Source: Branchiostoma floridae (Eukaryota; Chordata; Leptocardii; Amphioxiformes; Branchiostomatidae). From it: a stretch of DNA of 64,000 bases. The stretch is taken from the NCBI RefSeq assembly GCF_000003815.2, contig NC_049982.1:21818701-21882700 (forward strand), read 5' to 3'. Under the pieces are notes generated by a model. It did not search any database and was not told the origin of the DNA. It saw only the letters and a list, made by a program, of their open reading frames with translations. This document shows, piece by piece, positions 1 to 56,922 of this stretch. Each line of letters begins with the position of its first letter. Within the stretch, counting starts at the first letter, position 1. The position numbers were made by a program, and so were the translations under genes.

Positions 1-214
1 AAGACGTATTTTACCAGCGCTACATAACAAAATACATGTACAAGAAATAAATGCAAATCAATCAACATAATAGTGCGCCAAATGAATTGACTTGATTTGT
101 GCAGAGACGTGACGGGGTAAAAGGGGAACCAAAGATAAGAATGTATTGCCCAGCCCTTTCCTTTTACAAAACACGATAGAAAAAAATCCCATACCTTTGT
201 TGCCAGCACCACAG

Positions 215-3200
215 ACTTTGCATGGCAGTACCGCTGTATCACTGTTTCGGCATGGTGTTGGCCTCCATGGCAGCAGCTGTCTTTGGTACAACGATTGTCT
301 CTCCTTCACCCAGCTTCGAGCCAGAACCAACTTTACAGGCCATACAAGAAGAGAGGCAAGTAATAACGCTTACTAGGACATTAGAGAGTCGTTTTTCTTA
401 TTCCAATGGATGTTTGATGTTTGTTAATCGGATGATTAAATCATTCTACATTTCAAGAGAGCCTATTATCCTTTGTATTGTGGTAACTGTGTAACTGTTA
501 TCGCTATGGAGGCATACGACTATGAAGATGGTAATACACTTTCCTTTTGTTTTTCACGTTATGTTACACCATATTTTCTAGATGCACATCCATATATGGC
601 ACCCCGACTATGTTTATCGACATGCTTCATCATCCGAACTTTGACAAGTACAGGTTGACAAGTCTAAACACCGGTGAGAAGTTGGAATTCGTAATCATAG
701 AATCCTAGAAATCACTGACAGATCAAACATATACACCAATGAGAGATTAAGATACTAAACCTCAACAACTTCGACTTCAACGAGGAACATTACATCCAGA
801 TCCAAGGCACGGCTATGGGTACAAGAGTGGCCCCATCCTACGCCAATATATTCATGGGGAACTTCGAAGAACGACATGTTTACAAAAGAACCCCAAGACC
901 ATGGATATGGTGGAGGTACATCGATGACATCTTCGCAGTCTGGACAAGATCAGAGGAAGAATTAAAGGCCTTCATCCAGGACCTTAACGAAGCCCACAGG
1001 ACAACTAAGTTCACAGTGGAAACATCCAAAACCTCGATCAACTTCCTAGACGTCACCGTCATCATTTCGGAGGGGGAAATTACAACAGACCTCTACACAA
1101 AACCGACAGATAAGCACCAGTACCTACTCAGAAACTCTTCCCATCCCAAACACTGCAAGCAGGGGATTCCCTACGGTCAGTTCCTACGTCTAAGACGCAT
1201 CTGCTCAAGCACACCCAGATTCAAGGAAAAGGCTGCAGAATTCCGGCAACACTTCCAGCAAAGGGGCTATGAAGAAGCCCTACTGGACGACGCCATCACG
1301 CGTGCACAAGAACGCCCCCGCGAAGACACACTGAAGGAAAAGGGGCCGACACCACCACAAGAACGTACAGTCCTGGTCACCACATACAGTCCACACCTTC
1401 CGCCACTACAAACCATCATCAGAAAATACTGGCACCTTCTGCAACTCTCCACAAGAACCAAGGACATATTCAAAGATTCACCACTGTTTGCCTATCGCCG
1501 CAACAAAAACATAAAGGATCTCCTAGTAAGAGCCCAGATTCCGAAGGAGGACAAGAACTTCCTGAAAAAATTCACTCCTTCGGGGTCCTTCCCGTGCGGA
1601 AGAAACAAGTGCTCCACTTGTACCCACATCAAGAAGATCAACTACTTCACAAGCCACCGCACGGGAGAGCGTCATCTCATCAGGAACCACATCAATTGCC
1701 AAAGCAGAAACATCGTCTATCTCATCCAATGCAAGAAATGCGGGCTACAATATGTGGGCGAGACCAAACAAACGTTGGCCAATAGACTGAACGGCCATCG
1801 ATCATCCATCAACACGAAGAAGGACACTCCGGTATCAGCCCACTTCAACCTCACAGATCACAACATTGCAGACCTTGAAGTTCTTGGAATCGAAAAACTA
1901 CGCTACACAGGACATGAAGACACCACAAGACAACGCCGCCTGCAACGGGAGTCCTACTGGATTCATCAACTCAGAACACTACATCCAGAGGGCCTGAACC
2001 AGGAGTCCTTAGAGATCACCAGGGTTTGAAGAGCAGCATCTCGTCGTGACCGTCACCCAATGAACACTGTTTCGGCATGGTGTTGGCCTCCATGGCAGCA
2101 GCTGTCTTTGGTACAACGATTGTCTCTCCTTCACCCAGCTTCGAGCCAGAACCAACTTTACAGGCCATACAAGAAGAGAGGCAAGTAATAACGCTTACTA
2201 GGACATTAGAGAGTCGTTTTTCTTATTCCAATGGATGTTTGATGTTTGTTAATCGGATGATTAAATCATTCTACATTTCAAGAGAGCCTATTATCCTTTG
2301 TATTGTGGTAACTGTGTAACTGTTATCGCTATGGAGGCATACGACTATGAAGATGGTAATACACTTTCCTTTTGTTTTTCACGTTATTTTACACCATATT
2401 TTCTAGATGCACATCCATATATGGCACCCCGACTATGTTTATCGACATGCTTCATCATCCGAACTTTGACAAGTACAGGTTGACAAGTCTAAACACCGGT
2501 GAGAAGTTGGAATTCGTAATCATAGAATCCTAGAAATCACTGACAGATCAAACATATACACCAATGAGAGATTAAGATATGAAACCCGGTGAGAGATTCA
2601 CGTATGTGAACACAAGTGGGAGATCCATATGTATATTTGCGTTTAAGGTCAGTGGATACATTCCACATGGTAAAACCACATTATTATAATTGAAGGGTTT
2701 TGTATGCCTGAAATCAGTAGTTTCTGCATATTTGCATGTGACGTCACAGCCACTATGCTGATTGGTTGATCCTACTTGTAGACGTAGAGCAAAACCTGTA
2801 AATTTACACGTCTAGAATGTCATCTTTACATAACCTTATTTGCATAGGTCTATGCAAATTCAAATCTACCCAACAGCATGGCGGATGATACGTCATAAAC
2901 GCTTGAGTGCAAGCCTCCTCTTTACTCACGTTCTGCTGTCGGTTTCCATAGGATTAATCGGAGGGTCATACTGTCCCGCAGAACTCATGAAACAAGTGGT
3001 GTCCCAAATGCACTGCCCTGAGATCTGTGTAAGTAAAGTTGATTGTCAAAAGATCCTTCCCAATTTTTGAGATTGCTAATTCGCCAATACCAGATGCACG
3101 GTATAATAGCTTAAATAGCCTAATAGCAAACATTCGCGTTATGTACTTTGTATCACTAGCTTTGATAAGTATTATGTGAACATGACAGTTTTTGTAATAG

Positions 3201-6200
3201 TTGCCAAATCCTAAATAATTCATATGAACAGATCAGTGGTATTCAATTGCTGTCCACCGAATCTTTTGATCTGCTCCATTTTCTCGTTTTCTTATGGTGT
3301 CTATATGCGACGGCACAGTCACAATACTGTTTGAACGAACCCTTAAGAATCAGGTGTAATCTTCGATGTGTAACAATAATGTCAAATTAGGTAACTGATG
3401 GAAATGAAAGATTTCCTGGCAATTTCCAGGTGTAATCATTCATCATGGCGAACAACACCTACATCATAGCGATCTGAGTACAAACACCTACTTTGCTTGT
3501 CAACTCGTTGTTTTTGTTTTCAGATTCCTTACGGCACCACTGAGAACGGCCCCCTCACTTTCTTGGGGCACAAGTGTGACAATCTGGAGAGGAAATGCAA
3601 CACCATAGGACAACCTTTACCTCACGTAGAGGTAGGAGATTTCTTATTCTAAAGTCGCTGTGTAAGCCACACCCATAACTTGCTTTTCAGATGGAGAGTA
3701 TCATGTGAGTACTCTGGAGAGCACCATTTCAGCACTCTAGAGAGCACCAATTCAGCACTCTGGAGAGCACCATTTCAGCACTCTAGAGAGCACCAATTCA
3801 GCACTCTGGAGAGCACCATTTCAGCACTCTGGAGAGCACCATTTCAGCACTCTGGAGAGCACCATTTCAGCACTCTAGAGAGCACCAATTCAGCACTCTG
3901 GAGAGCACCATTTCAACACTCTGGAGAGCACCATTTCAGCACTCCGGAGAGCACCATTTCAGTGCTCTGGAGAGCACAATTTCAGTGCTCTGGAGAGCAC
4001 AATTTCAGCACTCTGGAGAGCACCATTTCAGCACTCGGGAGAGCACCAATTCAGCACTCTGGAGAGCACCATTTCAGCACTCTGGAGAGCACCATTTCAG
4101 CACTCCGGAGAGCACCAATTCAGCACTCTGGAGAGCACCATTTCAACACTCTGGAGAGCACCATTTCAGCACTCTGGAGAGTACCATTTCAGCACTCTCG
4201 AGAGTAACATTTCAACACTCTAGAGATTACCATACCAGCAGCACATTGTTGTTGTTGCTATTTTTGCCAACCCGAAACGTGATGGCCCTTAGCATGTTTG
4301 AGAAGTGAAGAGTGCATGGGGCGTAGATACCGTCCTTGTTGTACACTACGTTTAGCAGTAACGTTACCTTCGTTTTCCCATGTTGTCTCGAAAATGGTTT
4401 CAACATGTGTTTTAAAGTATAGCTAAGTGCATCAACTCATCATTTCTTCAGTACATAATTTTGTGTGTGTGTGTTGCAGGTAAAAATCGTGAACATCAAT
4501 GGAGAGATAACGCCTGTGAATGTGCCCGGCGAACTGTGGACACGAGGTCATGGGACCATGCACGGTTATTGGGGCGACCGTGACAAAACTACTGAAGTCA
4601 TTGGGCCTGACAGGTGGTACAGAACCGGGTACGTTTGTTTTTATTAACATCTTCACTGGCGATTTCTCAAATACTAATTGTCTGGAGAATAAAGAGTTTG
4701 ATCATCCAAGCATGTGACTCAAGTAAATATGGATGTGTTGTAGAGACGTAGCTGTGTTGGACGAGCAGGGCTACGGGCGGATTGTGGGGAGAATTAAGGA
4801 CATCAGGGGAGGAGAGAACATATACCCCAGGGAGATAGAGGAGTTTCTGCACACACATCCCAAGGTGAAGGATGTACAGGTTAGTGATACAGAAGTGAGT
4901 GGAAATCATTCAGACTGTGGAGGTACCCCCTGTAGTATCCAATGACCCTGTTATATCCCTGAATGTGCAAAGACAGGAGCACATCTTGGAATATTCTAGT
5001 GTGTTTCAGTCACGTTTTGGAATACATCGTGTTCATCAATAAACTTACCATTCCTTGCTCATGCACGTTTTGAAATGGTAAAGACCCAGCTAACTGATGG
5101 CCCTAAGTACGCCTTAGTGGCAGATCAAAGTTACTGAGCAACTGTCAAGTTTGAAGGAAACTGTAGCTAAAAACTCAACAATGTCGTTTTAGAAAGTACA
5201 GAGAGAACTTTTTTATGATGTTATAGTTGAACACAAAAATGTCGCTGCACGTTACAGTTACACATTAACGTTACATCTTGGCCAATGTAATAATTCATTA
5301 TGGCAATAAGGTTACAGATAAGGGGATAGATTTTAACAAAGTGTATGTATTGATAGTAAATTATGAGTTATGTTTTCACAAATGCCACAGGTGATTGGAG
5401 TACCAGACGAGAGGATGGGGGAGGAAGTTTGTGCTTGGATCAAACTGAAGGAGGGAGAAAATATGGTCGAGAATGATGTCAAAACATTCTGCAAAGGACA
5501 GGTGGAATTTTGTCATACACTTTGCACCTTAAGGGGGTGGGATGTCTTTTATACTTGGTACTACATACCAGAACTATTAAACCATTGTGGGTACATCACA
5601 GCATCTACTATAATGCATTAAGTTAACAGGGGTTTTATTTCGCAGCAGCGGAAAATATGGAGTGTTCAGTTATTTTGAGTTTGCGGTAGAGTCATATACT
5701 GTTGTCGCATACTGTAGTGGAAAAATGTTTGCTGTGGCCTTGAGTTTGCGGTGAAGCGGCCAATGTGAAAACTGAATTTCAGAGCACTGTGAACATTTCT
5801 GTATTTACAGTTTCCCCCAAACCTGAAGACAAATAAGTGGCTATCTTTAGTGGACCAGGTAATAAAAGCCGCTGAATAAAGCTCTGCTTGCAATGTTTAA
5901 AAATTACACAAGGCAACACTGTGTTGTCGAATATAAATTTTTCAATGTCCCAAAACACAGCCAGCAACCCCAGAAAATGGGAGACTAGTATCCACATTTT
6001 GGGTGTTCAGTTTCAGAATATGGATGATTTTGCCCATTTCACTTTTGCTACTGTCTTTTTTAGTATGTGAAAATGCCCAATGCCTGTTTCACCTTTTTCA
6101 GATTTCACATTTTAAGATCCCTCGCTACATCAGATTTGTAGAAGAATTCCCACTGACAGTAACCGGAAAGGTGACATTTTCATCCTTTTTTCTGTTAAAG

Positions 6201-14740: not shown

Positions 14741-14916
<176 letters not shown>

Positions 14917-15016
14917 NNNNNNNNNNNNNNNNNNNNNNNNNNNNNNNNNNNNNNNNNNNNNNNNNNNNNNNNNNNNNNNNNNNNNNNNNNNNNNNNNNNN
15001 NNNNNNNNNNNNNNNN
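14917..15016. other. Assembly gap, 100 N
   Basis: A run of exactly 100 N, a conventional placeholder for an unknown gap size. Confidence 0.99.
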
Positions 15017-41800: not shown

Positions 41801-44800
41801 ATTAAAAAGTTCAGTGTAAAGCCAAGCAAGCCTGCAGAATTTGATGTAATATATAGCTGCTGTTTGTTGTATAATGTGAGTACATAGACTTAACTTCAGT
41901 TAAACTGCCTAGAACTTAGAGAGTTAACCTTCTCCTTGCTGAGGTACCTGGTTTGGGTTGGAAGTACGTCAGCAGGGGAAGGTTACAAACCTTGGTGTTG
42001 CTGTGTTATAAAAGGCCTGGGAAAGGCCAGGAAGGAAGCCAGTCTCTCCCTGACCACCTACGGTACAGCTTCAGTCGCAGGGAGAACACATGTAACGTTC
42101 GGTAGGCAAAATCAGTCACAATCCAACATCACTCACAAGGGGGGGAGTCTCATGATCAGGGAATACCATTTTCCCAAACCTGGGTTGCTTTTAACGCTAT
42201 AGTGTTAATTATAAGTTGAAAGTTATGACAGACAATGAGCCAATGATAATCATAATGTCCAGAATCTTACCATAACACAAATTTCAAAACTACTTAAGCT
42301 AATAGAGTATATTGCAACACTGTCTTTGACATATTTTTTTCTAAAATGTGAAATAAACTCAATGTATTGCTTTGTAAAAAAAAACTCAAGAGAATGTAAT
42401 GTTCCCACTTACAGGTGAGACTCTAAGTTACAGGATTCACCTCCAATTGACCTGCCCTTTGGCTATACATAAGGGCTGGAGCTCATTGATCTGTATCCAC
42501 ACATTCTTGTGTTCCTTGACCGGTCAAGCCATCCTACTGCCTGGAGGCCAGTCTCCCTCTTATTGAGTTAGACATGATGAACAACCAGAGATAATTGTTA
42601 GGAACACTGACCTCTTGTGAAGTACAGGCCACATGATTCTATTAGACATCCATAGGGGATGTTTCTCGAATGTAATTGTGGGATGTTCTCATTTCTAATT
42701 GTCTACAACTACAGGTGGTTAGTAAAATCCTAAAATCTCAAAATTTAGATCTGAGAAATATAACCAGCCACTACAAAATCTCAAAGTTAGAAAATTCTGA
42801 TAATTTTTTTGTTTTGAAATACATTGTAATTGTAACCTACAATTAAAATCTGCACAGATGTCACAACTTTCTTCTGAATAGTTGTGTCTCATTACCTGCC
42901 CTTGGACAGAGGAAACAGGTGTGAGAGGAATGCTTTGTGCAGACATGTGGAGTGAATGATGATAGGAGACCAATTAACTTGTCACGAATATGCAAATAAG
43001 ATCCATGTAAGCAAGCTGTCACATATGAGTAGAACTGTACAACAGAATGTGATGATATTTTTCCATTATCATGCCCTCACATATATAGTAAACCTAGATT
43101 AAGTTTCTTTTTTATTACATTCAGTATATTTCTAGACATAGATATGATAGATGACAGTTATACGGTAATTTAAAGTAAAATTATGAGAGCATAAGGGTGA
43201 CCAATCAAATTAGGAAATGACATAGACCTTGAATTACAAAGTTGAAGGTCTNNNNNNNNNNNNNNNNNNNNNNNNNNNNNNNNNNNNNNNNNNNNNNNNN
43301 NNNNNNNNNNNNNNNNNNNNNNNNNNNNNNNNNNNNNNNNNNNNNNNNNNNCTTTACAATGGTCAGATGCGGCATGAGACAAGTACTCTTTTTATGTTGA
43401 CAGAAACATTTTTGGGCGCCAACATGAATCAAGTAGAACACCTTGCTGATATCTTCTTCTTACAGCAAAACCTAACTGCCTCTCTACACAGCTGAAATCT
43501 GAAGTTCTACTGGTTATATCTAGTAATACAGCATAATTTCATAAGATTAGTCCTGCCCCTAGACCAGAAAGGGAAAGTGCATTTCAGTAATACTTTTTTA
43601 TTATTACTAGTAAAAATGATAAATAATTCTAGTAATCATACGGAAAGGAGCAAGGGGTCAGTCCCTGGACTAAGCATGCAGGCAGGCAGACTTTTTAATT
43701 CAGCATGGTCTTGGCACAAATTTCTTTCCACTCTAAGGCATGTACGAGAAGACTGACGTCACCCGTTTCATGTTAAATTACTTGGGATATGTGCGTGCAC
43801 GGTGATCCCACTACGTTCATTTCTTGTGGTAGACTTTAAATCAGTTGACTTGTTGGTTGGTAGTGCAGCAGAATGGATCCATCATTTAAAGCACCTGCCA
43901 GAACCAATGGTTTCTCCCTGGTCATTTTCCCATCTGGTTGGATAATCTAAGCCATACACCTTGCTCTGCCTTAATCCATGGCTAATCCTACATAAACCAG
44001 CTTTTCAGTGCTCTCTAATAAGATTTTCATGGGAAATGGTTGTGTAACCTACCAAATACCAACTTGAAATATAAGTATGGTTTAATACCTTACATGTATA
44101 CAGAAGTTTAACAAAGTGGAAAAACTGTGTAAATTCAGGTAAATCAAGACTTGAGGGATTGAATTGAATTAAAGCAGGTGGTTTGTTCTAGAGGAAGGTG
44201 GTGCTTAGTTGTCAGAGTGGCATAAGATGTCTGTTTTTTCCTTCCTAGTGGATTACACATGGCTGTATGTCTGATGCTGCCAAGCTGGACTGTCTAACAG
44301 GAAACACAGCCGATTTGTAGAGAAAACTCTGCTCTGGAGTGTTGATAGACTATTTCATGCTGTTCTACATGTGACTGGTAGACATGAAATTAGGGCTATT
44401 CTAGATGGAGGGCCTAGTCAGAAGTCATTTCCAAACTGAAACTGAGCTTTTGCCAAGGGATTTTAAGGTTAAGAAAATACCATATGAAAGAAAAAACGTA
44501 CTAACTGGCCTCTTCGCAGTTTTCCAGCTATAAACTGTCCTCTTTGCAGATGATAGCATATAGAAGCCATTGATGTTGAGTGTTAGTTTTTTCTTCACAA
44601 AATATATATATAGATGTTAGTAAACTTTCATATCCAAAGAAAAATTTGAGTCAGTCCATATGGTCAGACTATTTCCTTCCTGATGAAAACAGCATCAGTA
44701 TATCATATGGCTCTCTCAGATAGTCAATAATGATTCAGGCTTCAGTATGTCTGTGAGTATTGGCAAAGAAGGTAACTAACTGGTACTCTCTTTGTCTGCA

Positions 44801-53800: not shown

Positions 53801-56800
53801 GACCCTTGCGATTTAGCCCCGCCTATTGTAAGCTCCTCGCAATTCAGCCCCTGGCTGCAAAGAGTGAGTAGTCGGCCCACCCAATAACAACAACAATAAC
53901 AACAAATTATAGAACAATGCACTGGTAGAAGTGATAGCATTTTTTAGTTAAATTTTAAGTTCAATGGTTTGGGGAACTGTTTCTGACAAGCCTTGTTGTA
54001 CAGCAATACACATCTTGCCATTGATGTTAGTATTCATTTCAATGTTGCAAAAGCAATACATATGTAAATTGAGTATGGGCTTTCCTACATATTTGCCCAT
54101 TTTTCAAAACTCGATATTCTGTATTTTATTTAGTATTTAATGAGGATAATGGAGTGTGGGTGAAAGTGTTGCTGCTAATGAGGACATGCAGCTATTGCAT
54201 ATAATCTTCTTTGGCCAACTTTTTACTTTGCAATTCATCAAAACAGTCTATCCAATTTTTCCCTTTTCCTCCTAAACCCACAATAAAGTATATACATCTC
54301 AGATGGACCATCCCCATAGAGTTCTCCCTAGCTTGTACCAGAAAAAGCTTTCTCCCAGCTTTGTCAACCCAATACTTTTTCTAACCTCTCCAGGTGATTG
54401 AGAAGTCCCCCAGTGGGTGGTGGTTCGTGACTACGGGGGAGGCGGGCACTGAAGGATGGGCACCCGCATCATACATCGAGAGACGGGAACGACCAAAGAA
54501 ACCACCTCCACCAATCAGCAATGCAACAGCAGTTCCAAAACCCACCTTCAGTCCTCCAGTGTCACCAGTAGCAAAGATAGTTCCTGCTTTTGAAAAACCA
54601 CAGTTGAAACGGACACCGAGCGATAAGAGCACGGTTGTGAAACCCAAGTTCAGCCCTCCTGCTCCCCCTGTCACCCAACAGTCAGGGAGAGAGAAGGACC
54701 CCAGTCCCGTTAACGGGAGGAAAGCTTCACCTGTACTCCACATCAAAGAAACTCACCAGACATCTCAGGAGGATCGACTGTCTCCGAGTGAAGATGACCC
54801 GATCTTACCTGCCATTGGGCAGACTGATATGCTTAGTGAGATTCAGCAAGTTCTGGCCTCCAAACAGAAAAATATAAAGAAAAGTTCCCCTGTTCGAAAG
54901 AGCTCCCCTGTAAGAAAAAGTTCTCCTGCTAGAAAAATTTCTCCTGCTAGAAAAAGCTCCCCTGTCAGAAAAAGTTCCCCTGCTAGAAAAACCTCCCCTG
55001 TCAGGAAAAGTTCCCCTGGGCCAACCAGGCCAACTCATCATCCACCGAAGGCTCCTCAAACAAAAGGATGGATAGAAGGTGACAGCAAAGACCTGCCGTC
55101 ATCTTCCGAACAACACACAGAACAGGGAGAAGACATGCTCAGTGAAATTCATAAAGTCCTCGCTGCAAAAGCAAAGCACGTTCAGTCAGAAACAAAACAC
55201 AAAATACACAGAACTGAGGTTTCAAAACAGAACGATGAAGAAGAAAACAACAATAGGCAACAGAAAACAAAATTTGTAGGGATCTCAGCAAAGCAAGCTA
55301 GGATATCTGCCAAGGAAGGGGAGACAAATGCAAAGCGTCCCACAAATGGGATTCCCACAAAGTATGAAGGGGAAATAATCCAGGACGAAGAGGGAATCTA
55401 TGTCACATGTGAAAGATATGAAAGGCAGGACACCAAAGAGATCAGCTTCTCAAAGGGACAGAAGGCAGAAGTGTTGGAGAAGAACACATCAGGATGGTGG
55501 TTTGTGAGAATAGGGTCCAAAGAAGGGTGGGCGCCCTCAACATACCTTGGACATGATGACAAGGTAGAGGAAGAAGAGGTCAAATATGAAGATGTGGTGA
55601 AAGCTGTACCTGCCAAGTTCAGAAATGGGAATGACGTCACAAAACACTTGCCGTCAGAAAACAAGAAACCAACTACAGTATCATTCCAGAAGAAGGCCAC
55701 GCCCCCAAACAAAACAGCCACCAAAGACTTAGAAATCAAAAAGCAGACAAGGGTTACAGAAGTCAAGGCAAGGTATTCTTTGCCTGTTAAGAAAACCCAA
55801 AGTGAATCCAATGTTTCCCAATCTCTTCCACCCAAAGAAAGCATTCCACAGGCCACGAGTACAGAGAGTGTGTTACCAGTTAGAGAAGGGGTCACCAAGT
55901 TTAAGGCAACGTCTGCAAGAACAAGTAGTCCTAAAGGCTTCCCAAAGCAGGACATAAGAAAGGGAAGTCCCAAAGCTAAAGTTCTCCCCAAGTCAGCATC
56001 GGACCATAAAAGTGGGAAGATAGAAAGAGTTCCTTCCTTAAAGGAGAGGATGGGGATGCTGATGGAGAAGACAGGAGGTGAAACAACATCTTCATTATCC
56101 AGGATTCCTAAGAAGAGACCAGAAGAGACAAAGGCTTCAAGAGCTAAGAGCATTCCAGATGACATCCACCAAACAGACGGTGAGGAGAGATTCATCTCTG
56201 TGAAGGAAAGACTGGGCATGTTGCAGGGGAAAATCGGTCCAGCAGACACTGCTGCCACAAAGTCAGGAAAAAGATTTGGCACAGTGGATGCTAAAGGACA
56301 GGCCAGACCAGCGGCTCCAACAAAGGCAAAGCCCCAACTTATCCGGAACAAACCAGCTGGAGCACCGGCAAGGCCAAAGCCACCAGTGTTCGGGAATAAA
56401 CCAAGTGTGCCTCAAGCAAAACCTGCAATCCAGGCAAGTAAACCGATAATTCCCAACAAGAAACCCGCATTAACACAAAGTAAGCCAAAATTGACTCTCA
56501 ACCATACAAGATCTTCTCCACCATCTCTTAAAATAGTAGGAGGTGGGGAATTAACTAGTGTTAGTCCAGATGTGCCCTCCCCCTTTAGACCAAAATCTCT
56601 GACAAGAATGGATTCTGAGACGAGTAGTCTAACTTCAGAGTCAAGTTCGCTGACGACGGTAACGGCGCTAGACGGGGATGAGCACATCTACGAGAGTGTG
56701 GATGATGTAATGGGTCACGACGGCACCATAGCAACAGAAGATAACATTTACATCGCTGCCGCTAGTTACCATAGTGATGATGCAGAGATGCTGAGTTTTG

Positions 56801-56922
56801 ATGAGGGGGAGGAGTTAGAGGTTTTAGAAATGCACTGGAACGGCTGGTGGTACGCTGCAGTGGTAGGGGGGGAACATTCAGGATGGGTGCCTTCCAATTA
56901 TTTGGACAAAAAGGAGATGTGA
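29805..56922 (+). CDS. SH3PXD2: SH3 and PX domain-containing adaptor (TKS5-like, five SH3 domains), complete, multi-exon
   Basis: TKS proteins are Src-substrate scaffolds of podosomes/invadopodia and bind phosphoinositides through the PX domain. Coding exons are 29805-29876, 31117-31197, 41085-41160, 45341-45417, 46159-46253, 47671-47831, 48381-48490, 48757-48874, 49303-49676, 50414-50466, 51989-52111 and 54394-56922 (TGA). The PX domain spans about residues 1-130 ([33 protein letters not shown]). SH3 domains lie at about 152-208, 226-283, 415-476, 775-835 and 1229-1286 (each with GWW...GW.P..YL). Five SH3s match vertebrate SH3PXD2A rather than SH3PXD2B, but a pre-duplication ancestor of both is equally possible. 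Exon 48381-48490 is one base short, which breaks the frame in this assembly; with that base the protein would be about 1289 residues. The final 2.5-kb exon holds a Lys/Ser/Pro-rich linker with repeated motifs. Introns reach 9.9 kb (31198-41084). Two candidate cassette exons lie at 50027 and 50859. Confidence 0.94.
34803..34990. repeat. Degenerate MITE copy in SH3PXD2 intron 2
   Basis: The series 'cttgaaatattgcagtgac ... gtactacagaattatttcaa' followed by 'ccgcaagcttgaaat' parallels 37783-37950. Borders are approximate. Confidence 0.45.
35865..36875. mobile_element. About 1-kb element with ~100-bp terminal inverted repeats, no coding capacity seen
   Basis: The left end (tagcctgatttaaactcgct, 35865 on, through 'ttacagccctggacagcaga') is repeated in inverted orientation at 36780-36875 ('ccagggctgtaactggcccc' to 'gatttaatcaggcta'). 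Arms share tagcctgatt, cttatagcagcccg, cggggaggggycagttacag and ccctggacagcrgagtttgtgt. The internal 800 bases show no transposase. It is probably a non-autonomous DNA transposon in SH3PXD2 intron 2. No target duplication could be settled. Confidence 0.75.
37048..37780. mobile_element. Element with ~35-bp TIRs and an internal array of GTTCNAAC-like palindromes
   Basis: The left end 'actgtagagtcgattcc...ccgagaggg' is an inverted match of the right end 'ccatctcggtgacttggaat...tgactctactgca'. Between them are many copies of gttctaac, gttccaac, gttcaaac, gttcgaac and gttggaac in both orientations. This looks like a non-autonomous DNA transposon rich in short motifs that could bind a transposase. 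No coding sequence is present. Confidence 0.6.
37783..37950. repeat. MITE copy ending in 'gtgaatttacagta'
   Basis: Begins near 'cttgaaatgtttgcaatgac', contains 'aatacagaattgattcaact' and 'gcaaacttaaaatgc', and ends 'cacgaaaataagtgaatttacagta'. It directly abuts the previous element. Confidence 0.5.
38847..38874. repeat. Palindromic hairpin, stem CAAGGAGGTT, 8-base loop
   Basis: Perfect 10-bp inverted arms in SH3PXD2 intron 2, with the same stem sequence as at 20163 and 51282. Confidence 0.88.
39531..39691. repeat. Fold-back MITE, ~60-bp inverted arms
   Basis: The left arm 'cctggaaaccagacattaag ... ggcaggtcttccc' pairs with the right arm 'gagaagacctgtcttggctg ... agtctggtttctagg', leaving about 40 bases of loop. 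There is no coding sequence. Confidence 0.8.
43252..43351. other. Assembly gap, 100 N, in SH3PXD2 intron 3
   Basis: A run of exactly 100 N between exons 41085-41160 and 45341-45417. The joined exons stay in phase and give continuous PX sequence, so no coding exon need be missing here. Confidence 0.99.
46345..46989 (+). other. Unexplained 215-codon open frame inside SH3PXD2 intron 5
   Basis: A stop-free frame in sense orientation between exons 46159-46253 and 47671-47831. It starts right after a TAG at 46342 with TTG, so it has no initiating ATG at its edge. The first half is hydrophobic. The second half (about 46735-46910) is hydrophilic, with [20 protein letters not shown] and [20 protein letters not shown] recognise no domain. 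Donor-like sites inside it (for example GAC|GTGAGG at 46809) do not match the phase of the flanking exons, so I do not call it an exon. Confidence 0.3.
48381..48490 (+). pseudogene. SH3PXD2 exon 7 with a one-base deletion frameshift
   Basis: The exon completes the first SH3 domain. It reads [12 protein letters not shown] up to about 48418, and then the expected SH3 ending appears only in the next frame ([12 protein letters not shown]). The exon is 110 bases, whereas flanking phases need 111. The run 'ggggtggta' at 48412-48420 is where one G seems to be missing. All other exons of the gene are intact, so a sequencing or assembly error or a rare allele is more likely than a dead gene. Confidence 0.85.
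50027..50071 (+). CDS. Candidate 45-bp cassette exon of SH3PXD2 with a GC donor
   Basis: Acceptor 'ttgtctctag' and donor AAAG|gcaagt bound 45 bases that enter and leave in phase 1, the phase of the flanking junctions. The insert encodes the basic peptide [15 protein letters not shown]. It lies between exons 49303-49676 and 50414-50466, in the linker after the second SH3 domain. Inclusion or skipping both keep frame. Confidence 0.5.
50859..50891 (+). CDS. Candidate 33-bp proline-rich cassette exon of SH3PXD2 with a GC donor
   Basis: Acceptor 'gtattttgcag' is followed by 33 bases encoding [11 protein letters not shown] and the donor CAG|gcaggt. It is phase 0 on both sides, matching exons 50414-50466 and 51989-52111. 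The GT donor four bases on would break the frame, so only the GC site works. The surrounding linker is also Pro/Arg-rich. Confidence 0.4.
51282..51308. repeat. Palindromic hairpin, stem ACCAAGGAGGTT, 3-base loop
   Basis: Perfect 12-bp inverted arms around 'ttc' in an SH3PXD2 intron; third copy of the CCAAGGAGGTT hairpin in the window. Confidence 0.9.
53411..53907 (+). mobile_element. tRNA-derived SINE
   Basis: The head resembles a tRNA gene: A box TGGCACAGTGG at 53416-53426 and B box GGATCGAATCC at 53459-53469. The body contains 'gggcacgttaaagaacctgcc' and a tandem duplication of about 60 bp ('tgagtggcgccgaatggcag' repeated as '...ccgagtggcag' near 53713 and 53772). It ends in an (AAC)n/(AATAAC)n tail at 53883-53907. 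It lies in the intron before the last SH3PXD2 exon. Confidence 0.9.
54883..55020 (+). repeat. In-frame 18-bp tandem repeat encoding SSPxRK, about 7.5 copies
   Basis: Within the last SH3PXD2 exon, units read [42 protein letters not shown], then a partial SSPG. Each unit contains S/T-P-x-R/K, a proline-directed kinase consensus. The repeat has stayed a multiple of three and free of stops, so selection on the protein is likely. Confidence 0.95.

Follow-up and report, generated by a model that had tools for sequence, protein, structure and literature searches.

The window analysed here is a stretch of 64,000 nucleotides of Branchiostoma floridae (C4:21818701-21882700 of the assembly searched, which holds 513,431,437 bp in 431 contigs). 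Its left part carries, on the plus strand like the host copies and the element described below for this locus, a host gene which we take, from its resemblance, to be ACSF2-like (acyl-CoA synthetase family member 2). Its splice sites and frame were assigned by hand. Exon A (215-355) is overlapped by an ORF with a partial Pfam AMP-binding match (23.1 bits, below the cut-off of 29.9), and an AMP-binding match above the cut-off is found at 4459-4647. Exon B (582-673, 92 nt) has AG/GT borders and exon C lies at 2952-3028, with a donor GTAAGT at 3029 by eye; the A-B-C reading frame is open (taken to 3029). As judged by eye, a GC-AG intron follows exon A (355-357, donor AG/GCAAGT). An intron of the same gene holds a minisatellite (3692-4240) with about 24 units of 23 bp, open in all three forward frames.

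The duplicated host segment and the inserted element

Self-comparison of the window showed that positions 240-754 (copy 1) and 2065-2579 (copy 2) are direct copies of 515 bp, identical at 514 positions. The count of one mismatch agrees with the preliminary description; we place it at 563 (G) and 2388 (T). After border ambiguity the length of the duplication is 509-515 bp. The duplicated DNA comprises the last 116 nt of exon A (240-355), an intron, the complete 92-nt exon B and the start of the next intron. The preliminary description, which had spoken of a duplication of host exons, was right about the exon sequence inside, but the segment also includes intron and only a part of exon A. Copy 2 starts inside exon A, whose remnant (2065-2180) lacks the first 25 nt and the splice acceptor, and contains a second exon B (2407-2498), identical to the first and with both splice sites kept. 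Native host junctions are retained on both outer sides of the duplication. Elsewhere in the self-comparison only the minisatellite and repeats of at most 107 bp were found.

When the 513-Mb assembly was searched, the best candidates, the only ones scored, placed the host segment at two sites only, both at the window locus. The three further matches listed in that search (77-80 bp, 79-81%) all correspond to window positions 1-82, outside the duplication. No empty allele with a single host copy was seen among the best candidates of this assembly, which keeps one haplotype. Several trivial sources of the repeat were rejected: chance, by 515 bp at 99.8%; a paralogous gene, since the other genome matches listed all lie outside the duplicated segment; and a pLTR or LTR of the element, since the repeat is host-specific and was not found with other copies among the genome candidates scored. 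As far as the assembly can show, the 515-bp duplication bracketing the element is real.

The gap between the two copies is filled by a 5′-truncated Penelope-like element (PLE) of 1310 bp (755-2064), so that the exact bracketing described previously holds, with borders ambiguous by a few bases. The element contains the last 424 codons and the stop codon of ORF2 (RT end and GIY-YIG), followed by a 35-nt 3′ UTR. The ORF at 743-2029 matches Pfam GIY-YIG (PF01541, 6.8e-08, 33.1 bits, cut-off 22.6) and, over the remaining part of the domain, RVT_1 (7.7e-07, 29.5 bits, 0.1 below the curated cut-off). We take the RT to be of the PLE type from its motifs and from the RT/GIY-YIG domain order. These features point to a PLE with a predicted C-terminal GIY-YIG endonuclease, and the two Pfam matches back the Penelope-like identity first proposed. 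No second copy was found in the window (one 20-residue tblastn match, E 0.55). Searches of PDB and of plasmids gave no match, and none of eight pattern matches in IMG/VR was confirmed as a relative.

The duplication may bear on the product of the host gene. By the exon model used here, A-B-C is open, whereas A-B-B-C stops within the second B. Inclusion of both exons B would thus frameshift the ACSF2-like gene, and the allele would make a normal protein only if one B were skipped.

Some features lie apart from this locus. At 14743-15016 a TA microsatellite of 87 units runs on into a gap of 100 N; another gap of that size is located at 43252-43351. An 845-aa ORF (54385-56922) resembles by eye an SH3-domain adaptor (SH3PXD2-like) and carries an 18-bp in-frame repeat at 54880-55018.

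The element family and its target duplications

The PLE family is represented by 43 listed genome matches, 72-100% identical. Six long copies differ from the 1310 bp of the window at 4-9 sites (one of them without the first 31 bp), from which we conclude that the family is young; one variant occurs in the window copy alone. In longer copies there are two overlapping stop-to-stop ORFs of 353-358 and 895 aa, the latter being ORF2 (L033 and L035). A pLTR of about 839 bp is present in copies on C5, C13, C12, C8 and C14, a partial tandem on C12, and a 31-bp repeat also occurs in the family. Inverted 5′ segments, with a short tail, were observed in L004/L003, L011, L012, L014 and L017. pLTRs, partial tandems and inverted 5′ segments are described as features of PLEs (PMC3846280). 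Searches of the literature for amphioxus together with Penelope returned nothing on this family; a Repbase PLE of B. floridae appears in an alignment (PMC11167929).

Family members have two alternative 3′ ends, either AATGAA(CAC), 35 nt past the stop codon, or the end of the pLTR 839 bp later. The window copy is of the AATGAA(CAC) type and is cut at its 5′ end. Counting the window copy, 27 of the 43 genome matches end at this same base, and six of the 27 continue into the pLTR.

Other loci of the family displayed arrangements of their own. L011, L012, L014 and L017 are truncated and carry inverted pieces of the pLTR end at their 5′ ends, which is what priming of reverse transcription by both target 3′ ends would produce. 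Two copies lie head to head inside one 14-17-bp target duplication (L033/L034, C13:3076001-3089000), and a two-unit tandem has one 19-bp duplication (L036/L037, C12:17317001-17334000); both were probably single events inserting compound elements. Insertion pairs with common flanks or boundaries on one contig (L018/L029 on C6 and L011/L012 on C12) are probably older segmental duplications carrying a PLE copy. A hammerhead-like CTGATGA...GAAAC motif is located in the pLTR of L036, near 3921 on the minus strand (its second half recognized by eye); Rfam gave no match to it at E<=1.

We measured the flanking direct repeats, microhomology included, of 25 insertions, the window copy among them. These derive from 30 loci: L003, L006 and L020 were merged into insertions L004, L008 and L015, while L012 (an N run beside the 5′ flank and a cut 3′ end) and L026 (without 3′ end) were left out. 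Thirteen more of the 43 matches were not assigned to loci. Flanking repeats of 12-31 bp were found in 17 of the 24 other insertions, with 1-5 mismatches in 6 of the 17. Two others had repeats of 7-8 bp, which may be due to chance, and five had none. The full-length C1 copy, the C13 inverted pair and the C12 tandem also carry ordinary short repeats. At L030, diverged matches of 47-70 bp on both sides, far from the element ends, were taken as unrelated repeats. Two of the 17, C6-22.13 and C6-22.14, probably go back to a single event that was later duplicated along with its flanks.

A long duplication was observed in none of the 24 other insertions measured, and self-comparison of the 30 loci with 1.5-kb flanks revealed no other repeat of at least 100 bp bracketing an element. 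In length the window repeat exceeds the next longest by a factor of more than 16. The preliminary description had judged such a length unusual and suggested setting it against the duplications of other copies; by this comparison it is unusual indeed. These 24 insertions rule out that long duplications are a trait of the family. With 509-515 bp, the window copy departs from the short duplication of 17 others. This was not used to exclude it from PLEs because duplication length varies among them; one Adineta vaga case has no target duplication (PMC3846280).

The two junctions were examined against the same set. At the 3′ junction the target sequence is CTGTAT/CACTG. Copy 2 begins with CAC (2065-2067), common to the element end and the target; of 17 other copies stopping at this 3′ end, 13 likewise continue with CAC. 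On the 5′ side, the last three bases of copy 1 (ATA, 752-754; host 2577-2579) are also found directly upstream of the truncation point in a longer reference copy. Such overlaps are usual in the family: in 15 of the 17 short-repeat insertions the repeat extends 0-5 bases into the element, and in the two others it ends 1 or 3 bases short. As read from the sequence, each window junction by itself appears ordinary for the family, and only the distance between the cuts is abnormal. The insertion is recent, well bounded and unusual.

Origin of the long duplication

A single aberrant retrotransposition is, in our judgement, the probable origin of this structure: ordinary target-primed reverse transcription (TPRT) in which the far end of the cDNA joined a break in the top strand 509-515 bp downstream. 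The first nick, by the PLE endonuclease, would fall in the bottom strand near 240-243, where the top strand reads CTGTAT/CACTG, and the freed 3′ end would prime reverse transcription of the PLE RNA from the normal 3′ start point of the family. The cDNA would halt after about 1.3 kb, giving the 5′ truncation, and its 3′ end would pair via ATA with a 3′ end of the top strand that lay 509-515 bp downstream, where the usual distance is 10-30 bp. This distal 3′ end could belong to the same duplex or to the sister chromatid, at a remote nick or break, and fill-in on both sides would leave the 515 bp in two copies.

The canonical 3′ end of the element lies at the first cut, as in a TPRT insertion, and direct host copies adjoin both element ends with the outer native junctions intact, as for a long target duplication. 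We favour a very long target duplication because ordinary family insertions have the same 3′ end, cut site and kind of 5′ microhomology. The model starts from what is observed, namely the structure, both junctions, the family norm, the near identity of the copies and the lack of a third host copy among the candidates of the assembly search; from these we infer the order of events, the origin of the distant 3′ end and the chromatid carrying it. One mismatch in 515 bp translates into about 165,000 generations, with a very wide error, at a mutation rate of 5.89e-9 per base and generation (PMC12862219). The mismatch fits two copies of one chromatid followed by later mutation. Against the model, this is a single case beside 24 other insertions with short repeats or none, and no empty allele was seen in the one-haplotype assembly. 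In addition, the 515-bp duplex between the nicks would not melt by itself, so that an extra step is needed.

An assembly artefact, in which a host segment that is single in the animal gained its second copy through Sanger reads, a chimeric clone or the merging of haplotypes, was considered unlikely. The element, at 1310 bp, exceeds a Sanger read and has near-identical copies elsewhere in the genome, both of which would favour misassembly. So would the history of the sequence: the chromosome assembly was made from about tenfold Sanger coverage with ARACHNE, merged with HaploMerger2, one haplotype being discarded, and ordered by Chicago and Hi-C into 19 chromosomes (PMC7269912). However, the two separate host-element junctions share only 3-4 bp, too little for an overlap join, and the presence of both on one element forces a duplication. 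Each 515-bp copy is presumably short enough for single Sanger reads to reach unique flank, and there is no N run in the surrounding 10-kb stretch (L031). Chained alleles would also leave their mark: at the heterozygosity of 3.2-4.2% reported in sequenced amphioxus species, two alleles are expected to differ at about 16-22 of 515 sites, and the Poisson probability of at most one mismatch is about 1e-6 or less, uniform diversity being assumed. Only one was observed, which makes collapsed or chained haplotypes unlikely and upholds the same argument made in the preliminary description. Likewise, the element variants form no obvious mosaic of any two among the six other copies compared, and one of them is private.

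Copying of host DNA primed by the cDNA is similarly unlikely; it would give the same product without a second nick 515 bp away. Here, following TPRT at 240, the cDNA end would invade the sister chromatid at 754 via ATA, copy back through 240 and rejoin, by a microhomology-mediated template switch or synthesis-dependent repair. A related step is part of a model for L1 tandem duplications, where the cDNA pairs with a downstream 3′ overhang of the sister chromatid (PMC7058536), and host spacers of 0.9-1.5 kb are captured by Pen1, one of the PLE families of A. vaga (PMC3846280). Invasion would have to rely on 3 bp of homology only. A distal nick and copying from the sister chromatid cannot be told apart by reading the sequence.

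Far less probable is unequal exchange between two ordinary family insertions, at 240 and at 754, on homologous chromosomes. By eye, a CACC at 734 would give an insertion ending at 754 a normal 21-bp duplication, but by a rough estimate a CAC occurs by chance in about a third of such stretches. This scenario requires two independent insertions in the same orientation within 515 bp by a family with 43 matches per 513 Mb, and copies from different homologs should differ by 3-4%.

Break repair yields tandem duplications with filler DNA, but a 515-bp duplication so formed with PLE cDNA as filler, independently of the endonuclease, or an older tandem hit later at its junction, is highly improbable: the element begins at the canonical 3′ end beside CAC as in ordinary insertions, and a later insertion should have left a short duplication of its own at the junction, where none was seen.

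Co-insertion of host pre-mRNA with the PLE RNA was ruled out, copy 2 being continuous into the native right flank, a continuity not to be expected of newly inserted sequence.

The preliminary description had offered two kinds of mechanism, a target duplication of great length on the one hand and template switching or unequal exchange coupled to the insertion on the other. The former is now favoured, and unequal exchange disfavoured by one mismatch against about 16-22. The simplest reading is TPRT whose second end was misplaced. Ordinary at both ends but with 515 bp between its cuts, this young copy suggests separable steps for the two ends of a PLE insertion; the later steps of PLE insertion were left for validation by the 2024 in vitro study (PMC11167929). 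The locus shows a way for a retroelement to duplicate an internal exon together with intron. If found in living animals, it would provide a natural allele for the study of splicing and of loss by recombination between long repeats.

Comparison with known systems

A long target duplication is a rare outcome already known for LINEs, and the kind of event is not new. The R9 element of bdelloid rotifers reportedly has an exceptionally long target duplication, in likeness to the window copy; for R9, a site-specific rDNA element, it is a regular property, whereas the window case is a single event. L1 has an APE-type endonuclease and a poly(A) tail, unlike the window element, a PLE with GIY-YIG. L1 large-duplication insertions are otherwise similar, in that direct host copies of hundreds of bp bracket the element, and exon duplication was noted as possible (PMC5223499). 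Duplications of more than 100 bp accounted for at most 10% of L1 events in HeLa cells and for 57-91% in three NER-deficient lines; the target duplications in NER-deficient cells ranged from 5 bp to 5.3 kb (median 1495 bp), and a distal unrelated nick was proposed (PMC5223499). Most long L1 duplications come from NER-deficient cell lines, in contrast to the reference-genome copy described here.

ZfL2-2 in wild-type DT40 chicken cells gave one insertion in 25 with a 1228-bp duplication (PMC2666801), a rare long duplication in cells without repair defect; ZfL2-2 is a LINE, studied in a cell-culture assay, unlike the window PLE. L1-mediated tandem duplication in tumours also has an element fragment between two direct host copies, but is somatic and on a 22.6-Mb scale (PMC7058536).

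For PLEs, no insertion with a duplication of this size was found in the literature searched, which covers few subscription journals and includes PMC3846280 and PMC11167929, and we make no claim to a first report. The purified PLE protein of an anole can cut both strands as well as extend them, and its reverse transcription begins at an internal point of its RNA (PMC11167929). PLEs of A. vaga have target duplications of 8-10 bp or none, unlike the window copy, but share with it or its family RT and GIY-YIG, pLTRs, 5′ segments in inverted orientation, a 5′ junction with microhomology and the capture of host DNA (PMC3846280). On a doubtful and bolder reading, PLE integration, with a protein able to cut and extend both strands, might produce long local duplications by a route of its own. 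The end of the cDNA would then leave the target and join or copy host DNA hundreds of bp away, with exon duplication as part of retrotransposition. Were this true, the window locus would be linked with the 0.9-1.5-kb host spacers captured by the PLEs of rotifers.
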